Assembly (NCBI GenBank): GCA_937146805.1 | Contig: CAKZRR010000033.1 | Coordinates: forward strand, 1-64,000 | DNA: 64,000 nt | From: an uncultured Owenweeksia sp. | Lineage (GTDB): Bacteria; Bacteroidota; Bacteroidia; Flavobacteriales; Schleiferiaceae | Direction: 5' to 3' | In this document: positions 15,073-36,142 of the stretch, one piece after another | How positions within the stretch are numbered: position 1 is the first letter of the stretch | How the letters are laid out: every line of letters begins with the position of its first letter | Made by a program: the position numbers and the translations under genes | Notes under the pieces: model-generated | What the model saw: only the letters and a program-made list of their open reading frames with translations | Database searches by the model: none | Told to the model about the DNA's origin: nothing

Positions 15073-18051
15073 ATGCGATTATTATATCCAAAGCAGTTAC
15101 TAGTAAAAGTGCTGTTTTTTTTAATACTCTCTTTTATCGGCACCTATGTGCCAGCACAGGATTCGTCTTTGATTTCGCAAACGAAATTTATGGCGAAACT
15201 CTCGAATTTTAGGAAAGCAAACAATTTTGAGGCGATTGCAGAAATAAGCCAAAGGAGGTTGACCGAATATGGCGATCAATTGTCTTATAAAAACAGGATG
15301 CAAACCGCACATGATCTTGGTAGAGCACTTTTTTTTCTGGGGGATTATAGAGAGTCTATTAATAGAATGAAGGAATATGTTACCGGTTACCAGTGTGTAA
15401 GTGATAGTTGCCAGATTATTAGTGATGGGATTTGGGAAATATTAGGTCATGATTATTCGGGTTTAGGAATATACGACAGTACGGTTTACGCAATTAATCA
15501 GGGCTTGTCCATTTTGTTGGGACAAGAAGTTTTGAATTACGAGAAAATAGTTAGGCGCTACGATCTACTGGTTTACATGTTTGAACATAGAATTGATAAT
15601 GTACCTCTTAGGGATTATTATTTGGAGAAGAATTGGTTTTATTTACAAAAGTGGGATGGAGATAAATATTGGCTGGAGAGGTATTATATGACCAAAGCAC
15701 GAATCTGCAGTCCTATCAATTTCTCCGTGGCACTTGAGTATTATTTCTTGGTTTTAAAGCAAGTTGATTCCACGAATGGCGTTGGCTTTAATGTTTGTTA
15801 TACCAACATTGCTAATGTGTATAATAGGAATGGAAACTTTGAAAAGGCCATTTCTTATTACCGAAAAGCTCTTCTTTATTTAGATTATAAGGGTCTAAAG
15901 GCACAACAAATACCATTAGAATTACTGAATTTGGGTAAAGCTTACTTTAAGATGGGGAATAGGGATTCAGCTATTTTTTATGTAGATAGGACAATCGCTA
16001 CCACAAAAGAACGTAATCTACAGGATGAACCCTATTTTTTAGAATTTTGGGCTCTTAAGGGAAAATATTTAAAGTCCTATGAAGAGGGAAGGCCTTATTT
16101 AGATTTCGCCTTAGCCAGGCTAACTGAATTAGGAGACGCAGGGCTAGATAGCCGAGAGGCGGTGATACAAGATTTCGCAGAATGGTTCAACGAGCAAGAT
16201 CAGTGGGATTCGGTCATTAAATATTCTGATATGATTTTATATCCTGATAAGGTAGGAGCAGGTCATGCCTTTAGTCCTTACCCTAAAAATAGGGACACAG
16301 AGTGGATGGCAGCTTTAAAGGCAAAATCACTATATGAACTAGGAATTAGTAGGAGCGATACTTTTTTGTTAGAACAAGCTTTGAAGTACTATCAAGAAGG
16401 TGCTCAGTATTTAACTGATCAAATATTGGCATTAAAAACAGCCGAAGGTCAATTGCAGTTTATACCAAAGGTAAATGAGATTTATGCTGATATGATTGAC
16501 GTAAGCTTGGCTTATTATAATTTGAGTGGTTCGGGTTTAGATTCTGTTTGGATGTGGATGGAGAAAGGGAAATCTACCATATTGAAGTCTCAAATGCAAA
16601 CAAATAAATACTTGCTGCGTAGTATAGACGATCAGGATGTTTTAACAAATATTTTGGACACTAAAATGGAAATTCGAAAACTGGAAATACAGGCGAAATC
16701 AGGCAACGCAGATGATGCTAAAATGCGTTTAACCTTATTTGCATTAAGAAATCGTCTGGACTCGATAGAAGGTTTGGTGGGTAATGAAGTTGAACATAAA
16801 GAGGATGAATTAATTAGTTACAGTCTATCGGATGTAAAAGAAGATTTGACGGGAAAGGATAAGGGCTTAATCCAGTTTTATGAAGGAGAAAATGCCCTTC
16901 AAATATTGTTTGTGGGTGATGGTGTGACTCAAGCGAAAACGGTTGAGGGAAAAGATTGGCTTATCCTTAAAGAACAAATTGAAGAGTTTCGAAAGCTTCT
17001 TAGCCAAGGTTATAGAATGGGTAGTGCAAAGCAAGACTTTAAAAGATATAATAAAGTGGCCTATCATATTTACGAAAAGTTGTTTTCGGGATTGGAATTA
17101 CCATCAGAATTGGAAATATTTCCATCGGGAGTTTTAAATTATATTCCATTTGAGGCTTTACTCAATAAACCCATAGCAAAAAACGCACGATTGGATTACG
17201 CCAGCTTGCCTTATTTGGTAAAAAAGCATCAAATTTCATACGCCTATTCGGCTTCTTGGTTGGCGATGCTTAAGAAGGGTTCAAATTTCAAGAAACCCGT
17301 TAATGGAGTTTTGGGTATGGCGGTTAATCTACCAACCAATTACAATCTGTCCGAGATAGACTGGCCGGCACTACCTGGCACTTCTAAGGAGATGAAATCG
17401 TTGGAGGCGTATTTGGGCTCTAGTTTTGAAGGATACTCGGGTGTGGAGGCAACGGAAGATTTATTTAAGCTTAAGCAAAATGATTTTGATGCGTTGCATT
17501 TGGCTTTGCACAATTGGGTAGATACAGTGAGTCAGGAAAACGGAGGCCTGTTGTTCTATCCTTCTAAAGAAGGAATTAAGGAAGATGGTGTTTTACACAG
17601 TTATGAAATGGTAGCGGGGTTCAAACCCAGCAGCTTGGTGGTGCTAAGTGCCTGTGAAACAGCTATAGGAGAATTAAACAGAGGTGAAGGCTTATTTAGC
17701 ATGGGTAGAGCTTTTGCGCAAAATGGAGCCCGTAATTTGGTGATCTCACTTTGGGCTGTTTCTGATGTGTACACCAGTAAACAAATGGCCAGTTTTTACA
17801 AGACTTTAAACGATGAGCAGATGCCTGCTGCAGCATTACGTGAGGCAAAGTTAAAATTGCTACTACAGGCAGATGAAATAGCCGCACACCCTTCTAATTG
17901 GGCGGCCTTTGTTGTTTTTGGAAACACGCCAATTGAGCTTAATACGGGCAGGCAATCAAGCTTTTATTTATGGAGCTCGTTATTGCTTTTAGGAATTCCT
18001 CTATTTGTTGTTATAAAACGTAGAAAACGGCTAGCCAAATTAGCTGCTTAA
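15073..18051 (+). CDS. TPR-CHAT protease-like protein, membrane anchored
   Basis: 992 residues. Signal peptide (VLFFLILSFIGTYVPAQ), TPR repeats at ~40-460 (e.g. NIANVYNRNGNFEKAISYYRK), a linker, then a C-terminal CHAT (caspase-like, clan CD) domain. Candidate dyad: His813 in HLALHN and Cys861 in VLSACETAIGELNRGEG. A last helix (FYLWSSLLLLGIPLFVVI) followed by RRKRLAK anchors the C-terminus in the inner membrane, which leaves TPR and CHAT in the periplasm. It converges with, and overlaps by 4 bases, a membrane TPR/anti-sigma-like gene followed by an ECF sigma gene. By analogy with TPR-CHAT proteases that cleave sigma-factor inhibitors, it may process that neighbour; this is inference. Confidence 0.9.
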   Translation: MRLLYPKQLLVKVLFFLILSFIGTYVPAQDSSLISQTKFMAKLSNFRKANNFEAIAEISQRRLTEYGDQLSYKNRMQTAHDLGRALFFLGDYRESINRMKEYVTGYQCVSDSCQIISDGIWEILGHDYSGLGIYDSTVYAINQGLSILLGQEVLNYEKIVRRYDLLVYMFEHRIDNVPLRDYYLEKNWFYLQKWDGDKYWLERYYMTKARICSPINFSVALEYYFLVLKQVDSTNGVGFNVCYTNIANVYNRNGNFEKAISYYRKALLYLDYKGLKAQQIPLELLNLGKAYFKMGNRDSAIFYVDRTIATTKERNLQDEPYFLEFWALKGKYLKSYEEGRPYLDFALARLTELGDAGLDSREAVIQDFAEWFNEQDQWDSVIKYSDMILYPDKVGAGHAFSPYPKNRDTEWMAALKAKSLYELGISRSDTFLLEQALKYYQEGAQYLTDQILALKTAEGQLQFIPKVNEIYADMIDVSLAYYNLSGSGLDSVWMWMEKGKSTILKSQMQTNKYLLRSIDDQDVLTNILDTKMEIRKLEIQAKSGNADDAKMRLTLFALRNRLDSIEGLVGNEVEHKEDELISYSLSDVKEDLTGKDKGLIQFYEGENALQILFVGDGVTQAKTVEGKDWLILKEQIEEFRKLLSQGYRMGSAKQDFKRYNKVAYHIYEKLFSGLELPSELEIFPSGVLNYIPFEALLNKPIAKNARLDYASLPYLVKKHQISYAYSASWLAMLKKGSNFKKPVNGVLGMAVNLPTNYNLSEIDWPALPGTSKEMKSLEAYLGSSFEGYSGVEATEDLFKLKQNDFDALHLALHNWVDTVSQENGGLLFYPSKEGIKEDGVLHSYEMVAGFKPSSLVVLSACETAIGELNRGEGLFSMGRAFAQNGARNLVISLWAVSDVYTSKQMASFYKTLNDEQMPAAALREAKLKLLLQADEIAAHPSNWAAFVVFGNTPIELNTGRQSSFYLWSSLLLLGIPLFVVIKRRKRLAKLAA

Positions 18052-18758
18052 AGACGGTTTAGTATTTCATCGGCCTTTTCCTGGTAGGGATTAGATCGCT
18101 GGCGTAAATATTTCAGGTTTTCTTTGGCCTTTTCTATTTCTCCAAGTTTTATTTGGGCTAATGCCAGATACCAGGTTATGGTGCTTTGCGGTACAGCTTC
18201 TTTTGCTTTAAGTTCTCCAAGAATTAGGGCTGCTTTTTGGTACTCTTTTAAGGCGAGGTAAGAGTGAGCCAAATAAAAGTCACGCTCATCACTTTTAGCT
18301 ACCGAGTTAAACAAATGAAGAGCCTTGTCGTAAACGCCTTGCTCATAGGCTTTTTGAGCTAGCTCAAAAGAACTTAAGTCTTTGGCCATGCCACGCTTAG
18401 TGATAGGCGCATAGCTAGTGTACGGCTCGTAAAAGTCCTTAAAAAGGCTGGCTTGCGAGGCCCCATACATGGTTAAATAAACCGATAAACTGGCTATCAC
18501 AATAGCACTGGCAGCAACTAGTGCTGGCCGCCATGTTTTACTTGAGCGTATGATAGGTGTTTGAGCACTGTCAATTTCCATAAGGTATTTTTTAAGCGCA
18601 GAGCGACCCGAATTTTCAATACCTTTTTTAAGGGTTTTTTCGAGTTCAATTTTATAGGCTATTTCGCGATCCACTTTAGCAAGTTCCATCAGTTCTCCGC
18701 TTTCTTTTTCAGAGAGTGTTCCTGCTACAAAATCTTCAATTTTTTCCTCGTAATTCAT
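18048..18758 (-). CDS. Membrane TPR protein, probable anti-sigma factor
   Basis: 236 residues. The N-terminal ~65 residues are charged and cytoplasmic (YEEKIEDFVAGTLSEKESGELMEL), resembling the short sigma-binding segment of Bacteroidota anti-sigma proteins. One membrane helix follows at ~75-95 (PALVAASAIVIASLSVYLTMY), then periplasmic TPR repeats (SFELAQKAYEQGVYDKALHLF, YLAHSYLALKEYQKAALIL). The start overlaps the ECF sigma stop by 4 bases (ATGA), the normal arrangement of a sigma and its regulator. It likely holds the sigma factor at the membrane until the periplasmic part is altered. Confidence 0.8.
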   Translation of the reverse strand: MNYEEKIEDFVAGTLSEKESGELMELAKVDREIAYKIELEKTLKKGIENSGRSALKKYLMEIDSAQTPIIRSSKTWRPALVAASAIVIASLSVYLTMYGASQASLFKDFYEPYTSYAPITKRGMAKDLSSFELAQKAYEQGVYDKALHLFNSVAKSDERDFYLAHSYLALKEYQKAALILGELKAKEAVPQSTITWYLALAQIKLGEIEKAKENLKYLRQRSNPYQEKADEILNRL

Positions 18759-19315
18759 GATGTGCTAGAATTTTTTGGGATTTCAGGTTTAACCAATTTT
18801 CTCAATTTTTGCATGCATTTGTATTTTTGGTTTTTAGCGGTATCTTCATTTTTATAGCCCAATTTTTCCGCTATCTCCCGTATGCTTAATTGGTCAAAAT
18901 AATACAATTGCAATATTTTTTGGCAAGCCGTTCCAAGTTCTTCTATTTTTTTGGCTACATGAGTGCTTAATTCTTCCTCATGGGTAGGCTCATTATCTTC
19001 TGTTTCTAAACTTAATGCTATTACACTCAGCTCCGTCTTTTTACTTTCACCCCGTTGGTAACTTAAATACTTGTTTTTACCTATAGCAAAAAGGTACGTT
19101 TTTATACTGCTATCTAATGTTTTCAATTTACCTCTCACAATGTTCTCATACATTGCAATTATAGTATCTTGATAAATATCAATACTCTCAGTTTCGCTTG
19201 CACCGTAGCTGCCTTGCAGCCATTGAACAAACTCACTCTTATGGCTTATGTATAGCTGTTCTAAAGCCTTTTTCTCACCCTTCTGTATAAGCGAAAGAGT
19301 TGAGTTTTTTGTCAT
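18755..19315 (-). CDS. ECF-type sigma-70 factor
   Basis: 186 residues. Region 2 is at ~25-95 (LYISHKSEFVQWLQ, IDIYQDTIIAMYENIV, SSIKTYLFAIGKNKYLSY) and region 4 at ~130-175 (LQLYYFDQLSIREIAEKLGYKNEDTAKNQKYKCMQKLRKL). No ECF accessory domain. First gene of a two-gene operon with the anti-sigma-like protein. Upstream are a housekeeping-type promoter (19354-19381) and one half of a mirrored bipartite motif (19324-19355) whose other half faces the subtilisin gene, suggesting autoregulation. Confidence 0.93.
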   Translation of the reverse strand: MTKNSTLSLIQKGEKKALEQLYISHKSEFVQWLQGSYGASETESIDIYQDTIIAMYENIVRGKLKTLDSSIKTYLFAIGKNKYLSYQRGESKKTELSVIALSLETEDNEPTHEEELSTHVAKKIEELGTACQKILQLYYFDQLSIREIAEKLGYKNEDTAKNQKYKCMQKLRKLVKPEIPKNSSTS

Positions 19316-19323
19316 TCAAATAA

Positions 19324-19355
19324 AGTTAATGTTTTGACTTTGAAAAAGTAACCCA
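19324..19355 (-). promoter_or_regulatory. Bipartite motif, sigma-gene side of mirrored pair
   Basis: On the minus strand: tgggttacttttt (19355-19343), 8 bases, aaacattaact (19334-19324). The same two boxes with the same 8-base spacing occur on the plus strand at 19399-19430. This could be the autoregulated ECF promoter, in which case the sigma mRNA has almost no leader because the inner box ends 8 bases before the ATG. Otherwise it is an operator. Confidence 0.65.
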
Positions 19356-19398: not shown

Positions 19399-19430
19399 TG
19401 GGTTACTTTTTGTCCTTATAAACATTAACT
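19399..19430 (+). promoter_or_regulatory. Bipartite motif, plus-strand side of mirrored pair
   Basis: tgggttacttttt (19399-19411), gtccttat, aaacattaact (19420-19430): identical boxes and spacing to the minus-strand copy. It reads toward the subtilisin gene, but a hairpin with T-run (19482-19516) and a separate TAnnTTTG promoter (19586-19613) stand between, so its own transcript may be short. Confidence 0.65.
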
Positions 19431-19672: not shown

Positions 19673-22282
19673 ATGAAACTTCGTTTTTACCTAAGTCTAT
19701 TTTTATCATTACTGACATTGGGCTCCTTTGGTCAAAATATAATGTCACCAAGGCTTTTATCACATATTAATACTGATGAACAATCCTTTTTGCCAGCCAT
19801 TATAGAGTTTGTTTCCAACGAAAGTTTAGAGGATTTTTTATCGCGCCAAGCAAATAGTACCACCCCAAGAGCACAATTGGTTAACCGTTATTTACTAAGC
19901 CAAGCTAAGGCACAAAATGAGGCCATTGATTACTTGAGTAACTGCCATGAGGAAATGGTAAGCGACTTTAAAACCTTTCATTTAGCAAATGTTATAGTAG
20001 TTGCGGCAAGGCCTGAGGTGCTGCGTTATTTGGCCAAAATGCCAAATGTTAAGTGGGTAGACTGGGCGGGAGATGAGCTTGTTGCTCATGATCCCATTTT
20101 AATGGGAGATTCCTTTGAGAAAGAATCACCAGGAGGAGTAGAACCCGGATTGTTAGCGATAAATGCCCCTGCTATGTGGGCCCTGGGTTATACCGGCAGA
20201 GGACGTAAGGTTTATAACTATGATACTGGGGTTTGGCCTAGCCATCCTTCTTTTAGAGACCGGTATTTGGGCGATTTTGGACCTGTATCTAATGCTTGGT
20301 ACGGTTATCAATCGCCCACACCTAATGGTAAAATTGGCAATCATGGAACACACACTTTAGGAACAATTGCAGGTTTAGATACGGCTACCAGTGATACCAT
20401 TGGAGTAGCTTTTGGTGCCTATTGGATGGCAAATGATTTTGTGGCTTCTACTGTGGCGGGCTTACCTCCTTTGGCACGCATGATTGATGCTTTTGAGTGG
20501 GCGTTAAATCCTGACGGAGATACAGCAACCAGCCATGATGTGCCAGATGTTATAAATAATAGTTGGCGTTGGCGCGATGACCCGGATACCGTACATTGTG
20601 GGGGCTATGTGGTAGATTTAATGAATGCCATTGAAGCGGCTGGAATAGCCAATGTTTTTTCAGGAGGAAATTCAGGGCCTAATAACGGTACGGTTAATTC
20701 TCCGCAACGTATTAATACCTCTAAAGTAAACACCTTCTCGGTGGGCAGTATCGATGCCAATCAATCCATGCCTTTCCCTATTTCGTCATTTTCTACTCGG
20801 GGTCCTACACAATGCCCCGGTTCTGGTAACCTACTAATTCACCCCGAAGTAGTGGCACCTGGCCAAAACGTACGATCGGCCTGGGGAATAGATGGTTATA
20901 ATAGTATTTCGGGAACTAGCATGGCAGCTCCCCATGTTTCGGGGGCAGTTTTGCTGCTAAAAGAGGCGTTTCCGTATTTAAATGGAGCTCAGTTAATGGA
21001 GGCTTTATATACCAGTGCCCTGGATATGGGGCCGGCTGGTGAGGACAATACTTTTGGTAACGGGTTGATTGATGTACATGCTGCTTATCAATATCTGGCT
21101 TTAAGCCACACACCAGTAAACCCAAATAATGTGCCTTGGGATGTGGCCGTAAAAAATATTGGTTACCCTTTGGGTGGCGAGGTAACCTGTGATAGTCTTT
21201 TTGCTCCCGAAATAGTTTTGGAAAATAAAGGCGATAGCGCCATTTCACAGGTTGCTTATACGGTATGGGTAAACGGAGTGCAAAGGCCTGTAAGTATGCC
21301 CACTTGGAACACCCCAAATTTAACAGGCAAAGGCAGCCTTCAAAAAGTGCAGTTACCTGCGATTGTTTTGCCTGCCTCGGGCTTATGTGAAATTAAGATT
21401 AAGGTTTTTTTGAACGGTAGTGCTGCTGAGTATGATTTGGTGAACAACCAACGGGTTATAAGGTTTAATAAACGAAATGTGGAAATGCTTCCATTTATGG
21501 AGGACTTTGAGCAGCCTAATAGTTTTGATGACTGGTATGTGAAGAATGAAGATTTTTTGAATACGTGGGATTCTATTGATGTGACTGGATGGGCTGGAAA
21601 CTCTACGGCTGCCTTAATGCCTTTTCACCAATATAACCCTAGAAGCAATCAAAAGGATGGCTTGTGGAGCCCCATATTTTCTTTGAAGGCTGGTAAAAAG
21701 GCTGGTTTGGGCTTTGACTTGGCGTACCAGCAGTTAAGTTCTATTTCTATTGTACAAGATACTTTTAGGGTATTCGTTTCTACCGATTGTGGAAAAACCT
21801 TTTCGCGCTTACTTTATGAAAAAGCGGGAGCGGACCTCAGTACGACAGGAATTAGCGCCCCCAATTTTAAACCTGCTAGCAAATCCGATTGGAGGCGTGA
21901 GTATGTTGATTTATCTTCTTTAGCAGGAGGTGAGATTCTTATATCTTTTCAAGGGACTAACCGTGGAGGTAACAATTTGTATTTAGATAATATATCCGTT
22001 TACGAAGGCTTGTGGGACCCTATAACTTTGGAGGAGTTGACAAAAGAAATGTTCCAGTTATATCCTAATCCAACCCATGAGTTTTTTCAAATTTCATCAG
22101 AGGTTTCAAGTTCCGACCCAATTGGGTTTCAAATTTTTGATGTTAACGGAAAAGAGGTTTCTACAAAGAGGGCTATTGAGCAAGATGAACTTATAGATGT
22201 TAGGCTTTTACCAAGAGGTGTATACATTCTTAAAGTGCAGCAGGGGAGGGAGGTTTCGAATTTACGGTTGTTAAGGGAGTAA
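19673..22282 (+). CDS. Subtilisin-like S8 peptidase with T9SS sorting domain
   Basis: 869 residues from the ATG at 19673, chosen because it starts a signal peptide (LRFYLSLFLSLLTLGSFGQ). The catalytic triad is intact: Asp184 (YNYDTGVWP), His224 (GNHGTHTLG), Ser416 (GTSMAAPHVSGA), with oxyanion Asn in SGGNSGPNNG. A prodomain precedes the catalytic domain. C-terminal beta-domains follow (one like a MAM/jelly-roll, FQGTNRGGNNLYLDNISVYEG), then a type A T9SS CTD: LYPNPTHEFFQI...DVNGKEV...LPRGVYILKVQ. Secreted or surface-bound endopeptidase. Divergent from the ECF sigma operon. Confidence 0.93.
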   Translation: MKLRFYLSLFLSLLTLGSFGQNIMSPRLLSHINTDEQSFLPAIIEFVSNESLEDFLSRQANSTTPRAQLVNRYLLSQAKAQNEAIDYLSNCHEEMVSDFKTFHLANVIVVAARPEVLRYLAKMPNVKWVDWAGDELVAHDPILMGDSFEKESPGGVEPGLLAINAPAMWALGYTGRGRKVYNYDTGVWPSHPSFRDRYLGDFGPVSNAWYGYQSPTPNGKIGNHGTHTLGTIAGLDTATSDTIGVAFGAYWMANDFVASTVAGLPPLARMIDAFEWALNPDGDTATSHDVPDVINNSWRWRDDPDTVHCGGYVVDLMNAIEAAGIANVFSGGNSGPNNGTVNSPQRINTSKVNTFSVGSIDANQSMPFPISSFSTRGPTQCPGSGNLLIHPEVVAPGQNVRSAWGIDGYNSISGTSMAAPHVSGAVLLLKEAFPYLNGAQLMEALYTSALDMGPAGEDNTFGNGLIDVHAAYQYLALSHTPVNPNNVPWDVAVKNIGYPLGGEVTCDSLFAPEIVLENKGDSAISQVAYTVWVNGVQRPVSMPTWNTPNLTGKGSLQKVQLPAIVLPASGLCEIKIKVFLNGSAAEYDLVNNQRVIRFNKRNVEMLPFMEDFEQPNSFDDWYVKNEDFLNTWDSIDVTGWAGNSTAALMPFHQYNPRSNQKDGLWSPIFSLKAGKKAGLGFDLAYQQLSSISIVQDTFRVFVSTDCGKTFSRLLYEKAGADLSTTGISAPNFKPASKSDWRREYVDLSSLAGGEILISFQGTNRGGNNLYLDNISVYEGLWDPITLEELTKEMFQLYPNPTHEFFQISSEVSSSDPIGFQIFDVNGKEVSTKRAIEQDELIDVRLLPRGVYILKVQQGREVSNLRLLRE

Positions 22283-22577: not shown

Positions 22578-24439
22578 ATGACACTAAATCAACTTATTAA
22601 AGGTAAAATTTTTGGGATAGTATTGTTGCTGTCAAGTTATATGCTTGTTGCTCAAACAGGTAGTATGGTTAGTCCTGAAAAAGTGAGATTGGAAAAAAGC
22701 TACCGGCAGGTGGTAACACAGTATGAAAACAGACCAGAGGCAGCCATTAAGGCTTTAAAAGCTTTGCTGCCAGAGTTAAAACCTTTCCATGGTTTAGAGT
22801 TAGATTGTTACAATTCCATGATTTACTTTTACGTGGATGCCAACCGGCTCGATTCGGCTGTGCAATTGGGAGCGCAACTGTTAGACAAGGCTTTGGCTTA
22901 CAAAGATTACGATAAAGTGTGCCATGCCTACAACACCCTGTCTCACACGCACAGTTCTGTTGGTGAATTGGAGATTTCCAGAAGTATGCTGGTTGCAGGC
23001 ATGGAGTAGCAAAGAAGCATAAACTAGAGCATGCCTTGTGGGAACTGCGCTATAGCTTATGCGTACAACAAGGTTTGGAGGCCGATCAACTAGAAGATGA
23101 AGAAAAGCAGCAACGCATTTACCTCAGTATTGTAAAAAGCTTAGACTCCCTACTGCTTGTAACTTTTAAAAAGACAGATAGCTTAGATGTAATTCAAACC
23201 CTGTGTGTTGGGCTGGCTGAAGTTGGAGACTTTGAAAGGTCTAACACTTTGCTAAAGAGCATTATTGCCGATGATTTGGAGAATAATATGCTAATTACCG
23301 CTGCCAATGGCGTTTTTAACTGGTCATACAATTTGTTAGAAATGGGAGATACATTGGCTGCTGGGGAAAAGATTTTGGAGGCGTGGGCCATAGTGGATAC
23401 CACGACCTTGTTTTATGATTTAGAATACATTAGCGAGGGAGCCGCACACATATTAGCTAGTGCTGAACGATACGAAGAGGCTTATCATTTTCAAAAGTTA
23501 CATGATAGTATTAAAGAGGTAAGCCAGAGCAAAAATGTATTGGCTAATATGAAGGTAACGGACGGAGCGCTTCTATTAAAATTAAGTAACCTAGAAAACG
23601 AAAAGCTGGAAGGTGATGTGAAGTACCAGAAACATTTGGCTTGGGGCATTACCACTTTATGTTTGGTGCTATTGGCAGGTGTAATTATGATGTTTGTATC
23701 TGGAAAAAAAAGAAAAAAATTATTGACGCAAGTGCAAGACCAGCATGAGGAGCTAAACGATCATAATCAGTTTAATACTCGAATTATTTCCATCCTATCA
23801 CACGATTTTCGCTCGCCTATAAATTCGCTCAACTCTATTACTACCATGGCTAAGGCCAAGATTTTAACCAACGAGGAGTTTAAAGAAGTGATAGGGGAGA
23901 TTGATGAACAGTTAGAAGCTACATCCAGCTATATTGGTGATTTATTGTACTGGGCTAAAAGCCGAATTAGTGGGGTAGAAGGGAAAGTAAGTAAGTTTGA
24001 ATTGGAAGGAAACCTCCAACAAATCAGCCAAAGTTTAAGGCTAATAAGTAAAGAAAAGGAGATAGGGATTGTTTCCAATATTGAAAAGGGTATGATGATA
24101 GAAACCGAGGAAACCTTGATAAATATTGTACTCCGAAACTTATTACACAATGCCCTTAAATTTAGCCCCAGTAAATCTCGAATTGAGGTAAGCGCTAAAA
24201 AAGTATCAAAAGGTTGGGAGTTATTTATTAGAGATTTTGGGGTAGGAATGACAAAAGAGGAGCTAGGGCGCTTGTTCACTTCTGAAAAAACATCTACCCA
24301 AGGAACACAATCTGAGCAAGGCAGTGGCATGGGTTTAGTACTTTGTAGAGATTTAATGCGAGCACTCGGGGGTAACCTAAGTGCAGAAAGCAAAAAAGGG
24401 GTTGGTACCACGATGTTTTTGTTTATTCCAAAAAAGTAG
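22578..24439 (+). pseudogene. TPR sensor histidine kinase, frame-disrupted
   Basis: Two frames make one protein. The first (22578-23009: signal peptide, TPR-like helices) ends SMLVAGME-stop; one frame over the sequence continues VAKKHKLEHALWELRYS. One missing base at ~23004-23008 explains the break. The second part has TPR-like helices, a membrane helix (GITTLCLVLLAGVIMMFV), HisKA with phospho-acceptor His (ISILSHDFRSPINSL), N-box NIVLRNLLHNALKFS, G1 FGVGM and G2 GSGMGLVL. A periplasmic TPR kinase of this layout is common in Bacteroidota. A strong aggagg-like site (gaaaggagggaaa) precedes the ATG, unusual in this phylum. No response regulator is adjacent. It is a true pseudogene or a base error. 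Confidence 0.8.
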
Positions 24440-33434: not shown

Positions 33435-33748
33435 AATTTTTCTGGCTGCTAAACCAGCGCTTTGTAGCGGATACAAATTTGAATTGAAATTTATGGAATG
33501 CAAGTTAAAGGCTTGTTAAAATTAAAAGGGCTTGTTGGCAAATAATGTTTGGCACGTGAGTGTGCTTTTTAGCAATAATCCGTTGAGGTGTTTTAGAAGC
33601 TTTCTCTAAATTAGGATGCTTCCAATATTGCGAATATTTCCCAGTTTGAAATTATTTGATACATTTGATTTTCAGTAACTTTTTGATTGTTACTACATTA
33701 AATTATCGGGCTAATTCTTGCTGTTGAGGTATGACTAATAAGACTTAG
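33435..33748. other. Non-coding gap
   Basis: Divergent intergenic region between moxR and the hybrid kinase. AT-rich; I see no RNA gene, repeat or long ORF. It presumably holds the control regions of both genes. Confidence 0.6.
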
Positions 33749-36142
33749 GTGAGGACATTTTTTAATCTACTTGTGGTTTTGTGCTTTGGCACTTCGTTAT
33801 TGGCAAATAACGAAGCGAGCAAGGGTGTCCTAGATCTTAGCAATCAGGATTTTAAATCAAGCGGAATTATTTGTTTATTGGGCGAATGGGAAATCTATCC
33901 GGGTCAGGTTTTGAGTCCTTCCGATTTTGCCAATGCCCATGTGACTCAGCCATTTTATGGTGATTTGCTTACTGAATGGAGTAGCTATAAAGAATTCCCA
34001 AACACCTTTAAAGAATTTGGTAATGTTACCTATCGGTTGGAGGTGATTATGCCTAATGAGTTTCCGGGTCAAAATATCTTTTTAAAGAGAGTTAATTCCA
34101 GCTATCGCTTGTTTGTGAATGGCGAAGAATTAATTGAAATGGGCACCATTGCGCATTCAGAGGAGCAAGCTAAGCCAGCATGGGGTTTAATCAACAAAGT
34201 GCTTAATCTACAACCTGGGAAAAATGAAATCGTAATACAAGTTTCTAATTTTTCACATGCAAAGGGTGGTTTTGATTACACCGTGCAAATGGGGCCTTCG
34301 GAAGAGTTGAATGTTTTTAGTGAATTAGAGGTTGGAGGAATTTTGTTTTTACTGGGCTGTTTACTATTGGCAGGTACTTTTGCCTTGGGTTTATTTTGGT
34401 TTAGAACCACTGATGTTACGGGTTTATTCTTTTTCCTGTTTTGCGTTTTTTACGCCTGTTGGAAGTTGAATACAGAGTATCATCTCTTGGATTACTTTTT
34501 TCAAGATTTAACTTGGAGCTTTACCATTCGATTTAAATATATCGCTCTTATTGCAGCTGTTACTAGCTATGCCTATTTTTTGGCGCGCTTTTTCTCCGAG
34601 TTTGTTTCCATTCGTTTGGCGCACAGCCTTTCGGTTATTAACGCTGTTTATTTGGCTTTAACACTCCTTGCACCTATTTGGCTTACTACGGCTATTTTAC
34701 CTTTTTACATTTCAATTTTGGGTCTTTATTTAGTAGCGCTGGCTATTATCATTGTGCCTACTTCTAATTTTGTTCATAAACTAGCTTGGGTAAATACGCT
34801 TGGCTTTATGGCGTTAGGCGTTGTGGTGGTAGAAAAGCTGTTGGTGCTTTATAATTTGTCAAGCGCCAGCCCTTTAATAAATATAGGAGCTAATGCCCTT
34901 TTTGTTTTTTCGCAAGCATTAGGTTTAGCGGTTCGTTTTGGACGAAATTACCGCGAATCTGCGGCAGCCGCGTTGGCAGCGGCACGTACGCGAGATGAAT
35001 TTTTGAATACGATGAGTCATGAACTAAAAACACCCATGAACGCTATTTTGGGGATGAGTACGTTTTTGGAGAAATCGGAATTAAATGCAGAACAGCGTTA
35101 TAAGCTTAAAGCGATAAAGGAGAACGGGCAGTCTTTGATGGGACTGATTACGGATGTCTTGAGCATGTCGGAAGTAGGAACAGGGCACATCAAATTGAAG
35201 AAATCAACCCTTAATATTGAAAGTTGCATTGATTCGGTAGTAAGTCTTTCTAAACAGCATTTAAAGTCGCAGCGTGTGGTTTTTGCATCTGAAATTGATG
35301 AATCCATACCGGATTTTATCAGTGGTGACTCTTCTAGGCTTAAGCAGATTTTGATGCACTTATTGAGCAACGCATTTAAGTTTACCGAAAAAGGGCGGGT
35401 TGATTTAAAAGTTCATCGCTTAAATACGGAAAAGAATGAAGTGAGATTGCGTTTTGAAATTATAGACACGGGCATTGGCATGAGCTCTAAGGGCAGAAGT
35501 AAGTTGATGAGTGTATTTACACAAGGCGATGCTGGAAATACGCGAAAGCAAGGAGGGATAGGCCTAGGCTTACCCTTAGTAAGCGAGCTTGTAGAATTAA
35601 TGGATGGTGAATTTAGCATTAAAAGTAAAAAAGGAGCGGGTACAACGGTAACAGTAGATATTGGTTTTGAAGAGCATGAAATGGAAGGGCCGAGGCTAAC
35701 ATCCATTTTTGAGAGGAATGAGGTGGATACAAGCCTAAAGGTTTTATACGCTGAGGATAACCCGGTCAATCAAAAGCTGATTTCTATGATGATGCAAACC
35801 TTGGGAATGAAGGTGGATATTGCTAAGGATGGTGTTGAAGCTGTTAAGATGGCAAGCAAAAAGTATTACAACATCATTTTAATGGATATTCAAATGCCTA
35901 ATATGGATGGCATAGAAGCTACTAAACGGATTATTGATAGTTGCATTGCACGTCCTATTATTGTAGCTACCACGGCTAATATGGCTGCCATAGATCAAAG
36001 AAAGTGTTTTGAGGCAGGCATGAATGATTTTATGGCAAAGCCTGTGCACATGGATGATTTGAAACTCACCTTTATAAAGTGGCAAGGCCTTAAAAAGTAC
36101 TTGGATGTTTCGGGAACAGAGTATCTAAAGTTGCCATCTTAA
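33749..36142 (+). CDS. Hybrid sensor kinase, 7TMR-DISM type
   Basis: 797 residues with a GTG start; a signal peptide (TFFNLLVVLCFGTSLLA) follows at once and no better start exists. Domains in order: periplasmic beta-domain resembling 7TMR-DISMED (SSGIICLLGEWEIYPGQVL), seven membrane helices (~190-400), HisKA with FLNTMSHELKTPMNAIL, HATPase (MHLLSNAFKFTEKG, IIDTGIGM, GGIGLGLPLVSEL) and a C-terminal receiver (LYAEDNPVNQ, ILMDIQMPNMDG with the phospho-Asp, MAKPVHMDDL). Such kinases likely sense carbohydrate-like or envelope ligands. No output regulator is adjacent. Confidence 0.9.
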   Translation: MRTFFNLLVVLCFGTSLLANNEASKGVLDLSNQDFKSSGIICLLGEWEIYPGQVLSPSDFANAHVTQPFYGDLLTEWSSYKEFPNTFKEFGNVTYRLEVIMPNEFPGQNIFLKRVNSSYRLFVNGEELIEMGTIAHSEEQAKPAWGLINKVLNLQPGKNEIVIQVSNFSHAKGGFDYTVQMGPSEELNVFSELEVGGILFLLGCLLLAGTFALGLFWFRTTDVTGLFFFLFCVFYACWKLNTEYHLLDYFFQDLTWSFTIRFKYIALIAAVTSYAYFLARFFSEFVSIRLAHSLSVINAVYLALTLLAPIWLTTAILPFYISILGLYLVALAIIIVPTSNFVHKLAWVNTLGFMALGVVVVEKLLVLYNLSSASPLINIGANALFVFSQALGLAVRFGRNYRESAAAALAAARTRDEFLNTMSHELKTPMNAILGMSTFLEKSELNAEQRYKLKAIKENGQSLMGLITDVLSMSEVGTGHIKLKKSTLNIESCIDSVVSLSKQHLKSQRVVFASEIDESIPDFISGDSSRLKQILMHLLSNAFKFTEKGRVDLKVHRLNTEKNEVRLRFEIIDTGIGMSSKGRSKLMSVFTQGDAGNTRKQGGIGLGLPLVSELVELMDGEFSIKSKKGAGTTVTVDIGFEEHEMEGPRLTSIFERNEVDTSLKVLYAEDNPVNQKLISMMMQTLGMKVDIAKDGVEAVKMASKKYYNIILMDIQMPNMDGIEATKRIIDSCIARPIIVATTANMAAIDQRKCFEAGMNDFMAKPVHMDDLKLTFIKWQGLKKYLDVSGTEYLKLPS

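Follow-up and report, generated by a model that had tools for sequence, protein, structure and literature searches.

What is a tetratricopeptide repeat (TPR)-CHAT protease doing beside an extracytoplasmic function (ECF) sigma factor and its putative membrane inhibitor? The question is raised by a locus in contig CAKZRR010000033.1 of an uncultured Owenweeksia sp. (assembly GCA_937146805.1; genome 98.9% complete), for which we analysed a stretch of 64,000 nt, hereafter the window. As the initial annotation had described, the CHAT gene converges, with a 4-base overlap, on a gene for an anti-sigma-like TPR protein, which is itself coupled through an ATGA junction to the ECF sigma factor gene. In type III-E CRISPR systems, the TPR-CHAT protein Csx29 cuts Csx30, an inhibitor of the sigma factor CASP-sigma/RpoE (PMC10028731, PMC9729208). 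We consider it likely that the present locus encodes a sigma switch that spans the membrane, and that CHAT would act there as a separase-like site-1 protease of the anti-sigma factor and thereby bring about release of the sigma factor. The basis for this, all of it computed here, comprises the genes themselves, their linkage, the predicted topology, a residue in the anti-sigma linker, its covariation with two residues of the CHAT pocket, the decay of the switch after CHAT loss, and paired promoters.

The CHAT protein belongs to the CHAT peptidases (PF12770), being matched by the Pfam model with an E-value of 4.9 × 10−48 (164.5 bits against a cut-off of 24). Its His813 and Cys861, which had been taken to be intact, are indeed both preserved in every one of the 51 CHATs that have a sigma factor gene within 6 kb. 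The best structural matches to its AlphaFold 2 (AF2) model are Csx29 chains (Z about 30), and the separase ctSPD is also recovered (Z 26.6, root-mean-square deviation 3.6, 325 residues aligned). In both sequence and model, the protein opens with a signal-like helix and closes with a helix spanning residues 960–991 that ends in Arg/Lys. A C-terminal transmembrane (TM) helix is called by a hydropathy rule in 44/51 of the sigma-linked CHATs, and most of them open with a signal-peptide-like helix as judged by eye, the N-terminal hydropathy rule alone passing 24/51.

The sigma factor is assigned to the ECF group through NCBIfam model TIGR02937 (64.7 bits; cut-off 42.9). For its partner, the Pfam models matching 43 members of the family include no anti-sigma domain and are mostly TPR models; the name anti-sigma is based on the position of the gene after that of the sigma factor and on the AF2 model of the protein. 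In this model (predicted local distance difference test score of 88), a helical domain (residues 3–65), a TM helix (78–97), an extended linker (110–129) and a TPR domain (130–235) follow one another. Across the anti-sigma factors, Lys and Arg together average 4.1 in the 15 residues before the TM helix against 1.0 after it; given this fourfold bias, the TPR half should, to judge from the sequences, face the periplasm, like the body of the CHAT protein. This agrees with the shared compartment predicted for the CHAT domain and the TPR half in the initial annotation: both are placed in the periplasm by rule-based topology prediction and the AF2 models.

Conserved linkage of the three genes in Bacteroidota, which had been suggested as a check, was found. 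Among 246 genomes of the order with a completeness of at least 90%, and with a cut-off of at least 90 bits for the anti-sigma family, CHAT is present in 31 and the anti-sigma family in 35; all 31 of the CHAT genomes have both, and 211 have neither (Fisher p 2 × 10−35). The anti-sigma gene lies within 12 kb of 48/53 CHATs, in divergent (26), convergent (19) or codirectional (3) orientation. Within the bacterial family, six genomes contain anti-sigma matches, always adjoining a CHAT gene, and a profile search added a seventh (G002). The same linkage is seen in many Flavobacteriaceae, Saprospiraceae, Cytophagales-type and other Bacteroidota records in a scan of named genomes, and, in a set gathered by the sigma factor, a CHAT gene lies within the fetched stretch for 16 of 20 strong anti-sigma matches. 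Closer to home, RmuC and MarC genes flank the CHAT gene both in the window and at locus L009 of genus-mate G028, which makes it probable that the genus inherited the CHAT locus from its ancestor; two other genus-mates, G026 and G027, lack CHAT and this anti-sigma family alike. The sigma family taken alone was rejected as a marker of the system, as its members are also found with another type of membrane partner, of ~365 amino acids (aa), at loci devoid of CHAT (L173–L200; e.g. L173:9790-10884). Two variations on the layout may be recorded: tandem arrays of up to five CHAT genes stand beside one sigma/anti-sigma pair at L067 and L026, and some divergent loci (L165:5292-8408; L144, L142, L163 and L166) carry genes for a secreted PKD/DUF7849 protein and a protein of 320–330 aa without a Pfam match between CHAT and the sigma factor.

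The anti-sigma linker is variable except at one residue, situated a median of 25 residues after the TM helix and usually followed by Gly, Ser, Asp or Asn. With the slot assigned by pattern and by eye, the 85 linked pairs divide into 75 with Arg, five with Lys, four with Met and one with Leu. In selected Met-type anti-sigma factors, the Met is 11 residues from an upstream Tyr, as in some Arg types; the spacing in other Arg types is 13. The identity of the linker residue is mirrored in the CHAT protein. All 75 Arg-type pairs have Asp at position 898. Seven CHATs have Glu or Ser there, and their partners carry Lys (three pairs) or Met (four pairs). When 322 CHAT columns were scanned, invariance in the Arg-type pairs combined with change in 7/7 of the altered CHATs was confined to two of them, 773 (Glu) and 898 (Asp). 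A later set of 40 further loci, gathered with a Met-type CHAT query and read after the first scan, follows the same rule: 9/9 of the CHATs altered at 773 that have an anti-sigma factor pair with Met, and 15/15 with Glu773 and Asp898 pair with Arg (24/24 fitting; p 7.6 × 10−7, a value that overstates independence because eight of the nine altered CHATs form one clade). At L268, 773 is Leu, Asp898 is kept and the linker residue is Met.

These two positions have counterparts in the literature on separase. In a model of the Caenorhabditis elegans enzyme, the P1 Arg of the substrate is held by two acids, Glu917, at the start of the β1-α1 insertion, and Asp1082, near the N-terminus of helix α4 (PMC4626109). 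In the AF2 model of the CHAT protein, Glu773 sits in the helix following the strand 744–750, and Asp898 is the first residue of the helix 898–912. On the grounds of motif and secondary structure, we propose that Glu773 and Asp898 correspond to this pair of acids. Such joint change in the pocket and the linker suggests that a single site is cut.

Could the covariation be an accident of shared ancestry, with the linker Arg serving another protease or a structural role? The Lys-type pairs do form one clade and the Met-type pairs mostly another, and three pairs do not fit. We nevertheless regard this as very improbable. On a tree of 108 CHATs built without columns 773 and 898, five changes are counted for the linker residue, four for 773 and three for 898, and all four changes at 773 (in the Lys clade, the Met clade, L089 and L268) coincide with non-Arg linkers, for which a rough count that takes branches as equal gives a chance of ~6 × 10−8. 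Column 773 is the only one of 316 to change in all four of these lineages; change in three is limited to 898 and the poorly conserved 697. Moreover, the positions so singled out are those of the acids named in the published separase model. Several points weigh against the cleavage proposal itself. The three misfits (L075 and L071 with Lys, and L034 with Leu) all keep Glu773 and Asp898; behind the covariation stand about four independent changes, with one large clade supplying most of the Met cases, and the sign test of the tree tool on independent pairs cannot reach significance with so few events. Residues 773 and 898 were put in the S1 pocket by motif, position within the secondary structure and literature, and the pattern of Arg plus a small residue also occurs in 15/38 unrelated sigma partners. 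Finally, the predicted promoter element of the sigma factor, described below, was not found in the CHAT promoter region of the window.

Natural losses of CHAT bear on its role. The anti-sigma family occurs without CHAT in four genomes of the order, and in 4/4 the sigma or anti-sigma gene is missing or damaged. G116 has no match to the sigma factor next to its anti-sigma gene, and its linker lacks the Arg. G208 has lost the sigma gene and retains a 68-residue CHAT remnant; this may have been a single deletion across neighbouring genes, and it is, therefore, weaker evidence of dependence than that from G192 and G223. In the latter two, which are close relatives of each other, a deletion joins the front of the sigma gene to the rear of the anti-sigma gene, so that sigma region 4 and the N-terminal domain of the anti-sigma factor are lost, and G223 has kept a 38-residue CHAT remnant. 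Such damage is as expected if CHAT acts on the switch.

It also helps to assess a different explanation for the matched pocket and linker, namely, that the linker is a pseudosubstrate lodged in the CHAT active site, which keeps the protease inactive, as securin does separase, until the released CHAT cuts something else. A bound inhibitor would equally give linker–pocket matching, control of separase by securin is known, and separase–securin complexes are among the structural matches to the CHAT model. Securin-type pseudosubstrates, however, usually depart from the substrate sequence at or near P1, whereas here the residue in the P1 slot is the one that the pocket would be expected to cut (Arg with the acids, Met or Lys without them); this, together with the damage to the sigma or anti-sigma genes on loss of CHAT, makes the pseudosubstrate improbable in our judgement.

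The intergenic region between the sigma and subtilase genes contains two divergent copies of a predicted promoter, GGGTTAC-TTTTT-N11-CATTAA, which are the only perfect ones in the genome. Similar pairs lie at the same place in L009 and L010, and a profile trained on six sites picked by eye scores 23/89 further loci above shuffles that keep single-base composition only. The genome-wide search for further copies gave looser matches at the control level only, and so we claim no wider regulon; one such copy, with two mismatches (33674-33701, + strand), precedes a hybrid histidine kinase gene (33749-36142) by 48 bases. The diverging gene encodes a subtilase with a type IX secretion system (T9SS) tail both here and in L009, where it is one gene further on; at other loci, the product differs, examples being a T9SS-tailed M43 peptidase and an FG-GAP protein. 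Given that the diverging gene differs between genomes while CHAT stays, the S8 subtilase was set aside as a candidate site-1 protease.

The promoters also bear on whether CHAT is simply an output, an effector made under the control of the sigma factor, with its proximity reflecting co-expression. The CHAT operon diverges from the sigma gene in 26/53 cases and may be sigma-controlled there. However, no predicted sigma promoter lies upstream of CHAT in the window, and co-expression alone predicts no matched changes in pocket and linker; we therefore find this explanation very unlikely, while noting that CHAT could be both regulator and target of the sigma factor.

Bringing these strands together, we envisage the switch as follows. 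The N-terminal cytoplasmic domain of the anti-sigma factor would hold the ECF sigma factor at the membrane, with its linker and TPR domain being exposed in the periplasm, where the CHAT protein would be anchored through its C-terminal helix. The long TPR part of CHAT would sense a signal, perhaps a peptide or a misassembled surface protein, whereupon the separase-like CHAT domain would cut the linker after Arg122, just outside the membrane. A site-2 protease, for which the genome has one M50 candidate, and cytoplasmic proteases would then clear the shortened anti-sigma factor, and the freed sigma factor would drive its own operon and the diverging gene, here that of the T9SS-secreted subtilisin. 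What we infer in this scheme is the cleavage, its place in the cascade, the signal, the release of the sigma factor and the regulon. On this model, the make-up of the pocket would predict which residue is cut: Arg, Lys or Met. The features are collected in Table 1. Further along the window, a gene for a FimS-like TPR histidine kinase (22578-24439, + strand) is split across two frames near 23009/23036, through a frameshift or an assembly error.

Table 1. Features of the CHAT/anti-sigma/sigma locus, with positions numbered from the first base of the window
Feature	Position	Strand	Basis
TPR-CHAT protease, 992 aa	15073..18051	+	Open reading frame (ORF), Pfam match, AF2 model, structural matches
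TPR-CHAT parts: signal peptide (aa 1-28), TPR solenoid (~31-540), caspase-like region, C-terminal anchor helix (960-991) with Arg/Lys tail			
CHAT domain (PF12770), aa 677-951	17101..17925	+	Pfam
Catalytic His813	17509..17511	+	Invariant in 51/51 sigma-linked CHATs
Catalytic Cys861	17653..17655	+	Invariant in 51/51 sigma-linked CHATs
Glu773, proposed S1-pocket acid	17389..17391	+	Column scans, tree
Asp898, proposed S1-pocket acid	17764..17766	+	Motif and helix position; proposed equivalent of separase Asp1082 / D2151
Membrane anti-sigma factor with C-terminal TPR domain, 236 aa	18048..18758	-	ORF, AF2 model
Anti-sigma N-terminal helical domain, aa 3-65, proposed sigma-binding, cytoplasmic	18564..18752	-	AF2 model, positive-inside charge bias
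Anti-sigma TM helix, aa 78-97	18468..18527	-	AF2 model
Anti-sigma extended periplasmic linker between TM and TPR, aa 110-129	18372..18431	-	AF2 model
Anti-sigma Arg122, proposed P1 of CHAT cleavage site (ITKR/GMA, cut at the slash)	18393..18395	-	Conservation, covariation with CHAT 773/898
Anti-sigma periplasmic TPR domain, aa 130-235	18054..18371	-	TPR matches, AF2 model
ECF sigma factor, 186 aa	18755..19315	-	NCBIfam TIGR02937
Predicted sigma promoter GGGTTAC-TTTTT-N11-CATTAA, facing sigma operon	19326..19354	-	Motif
Second predicted promoter copy, facing subtilase gene	19400..19428	+	Motif
Subtilase (S8) with T9SS sorting domain, predicted switch output	19673..22282	+	Conserved in genus-mate L009

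We know of no assigned target for these bacterial relatives of separase. The proposal offers a large group of them a candidate substrate, with its cut site, and would provide an anti-sigma family of Bacteroidota with a site-1 protease dedicated to it; additionally, it suggests a possible origin for the sigma-release arm of type III-E CRISPR. A search of the literature for CHAT in connection with anti-sigma factors returned only the Csx29 paper; most of the subscription literature, that on ECF classification and DdvA included, was outside its reach, and earlier mention is, therefore, possible.

The resemblance to the Craspase/CASP system lies in a TPR-CHAT protein with a His/Cys dyad and a separase-like fold, as borne out by the match to Csx29, and in a sigma inhibitor encoded nearby, which is the substrate there and the proposed substrate here, with an ECF-type sigma factor thought to be released. 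The two differ in that the present protease is predicted to be exported and membrane-anchored, and its anti-sigma factor is a one-helix membrane protein. They also differ in the pocket, which here keeps Glu and Asp and predicts Arg at P1, whereas in Craspase a Lys replaces the P1-Arg residue of separase, D2151, and Csx30 is reported to be cut after a Leu (PMC9729208). The anti-sigma factor has no Pfam or NCBIfam match to Csx30, for which no model was run on its own. No member of the RAMP family (PF03787; Cas7-11/gRAMP) was matched in the whole genome, in keeping with the description of the locus as CRISPR-free.

The closest characterized arrangement is that of DdvA from Myxococcus, a transmembrane anti-sigma factor of the ECF sigma factor DdvS that itself carries a CHAT domain. 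DdvA was recovered by Foldseek (PDB codes: 8rot and 8rw5; molecule name 'CHAT domain-containing protein'), and the CHAT profile matches residues 834–977 of its 991 with an E-value of 3.7 × 10−7. Anti-sigma and CHAT form one polypeptide in DdvA, whereas they are encoded here by two separate, convergent genes. DdvS controls an antiphage island (PMC12288465); none was seen beside the present locus, and PADLOC, apart from a weak TPR match, assigned none of the three proteins (CHAT, anti-sigma and sigma) to a defence system. Tentatively, and with rather less confidence than we attach to the switch itself, we suggest that CRISPR-independent, periplasmic, separase-like site-1 proteases may be widespread controllers of membrane anti-sigma factors in Bacteroidota, with a specificity readable from two pocket residues, and that Csx29–Csx30–CASP-sigma could be a captured, and Myxococcus DdvA a fused, form of this older envelope switch.

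With DegS-RseA-RseP of the sigma E pathway, the proposal shares a periplasmic site-1 cut of a one-helix membrane anti-sigma factor, followed by site-2 and cytoplasmic proteolysis; where that pathway has a PDZ serine protease, the site-1 enzyme here would be a cysteine protease of the CHAT family with its own TPR part. The similarity to eukaryotic separase (peptidase family C50) extends to the fold of the catalytic part, the dyad and the two proposed acids for a P1 Arg, but the CHAT protein is bacterial and periplasmic, has a different proposed substrate, and bears a TPR part in place of the long helical N-terminal part of separase. Overall, by comparison with these systems, the locus would work in the manner of both Csx29/Csx30 and DegS/RseA, yet not as a type III-E system.

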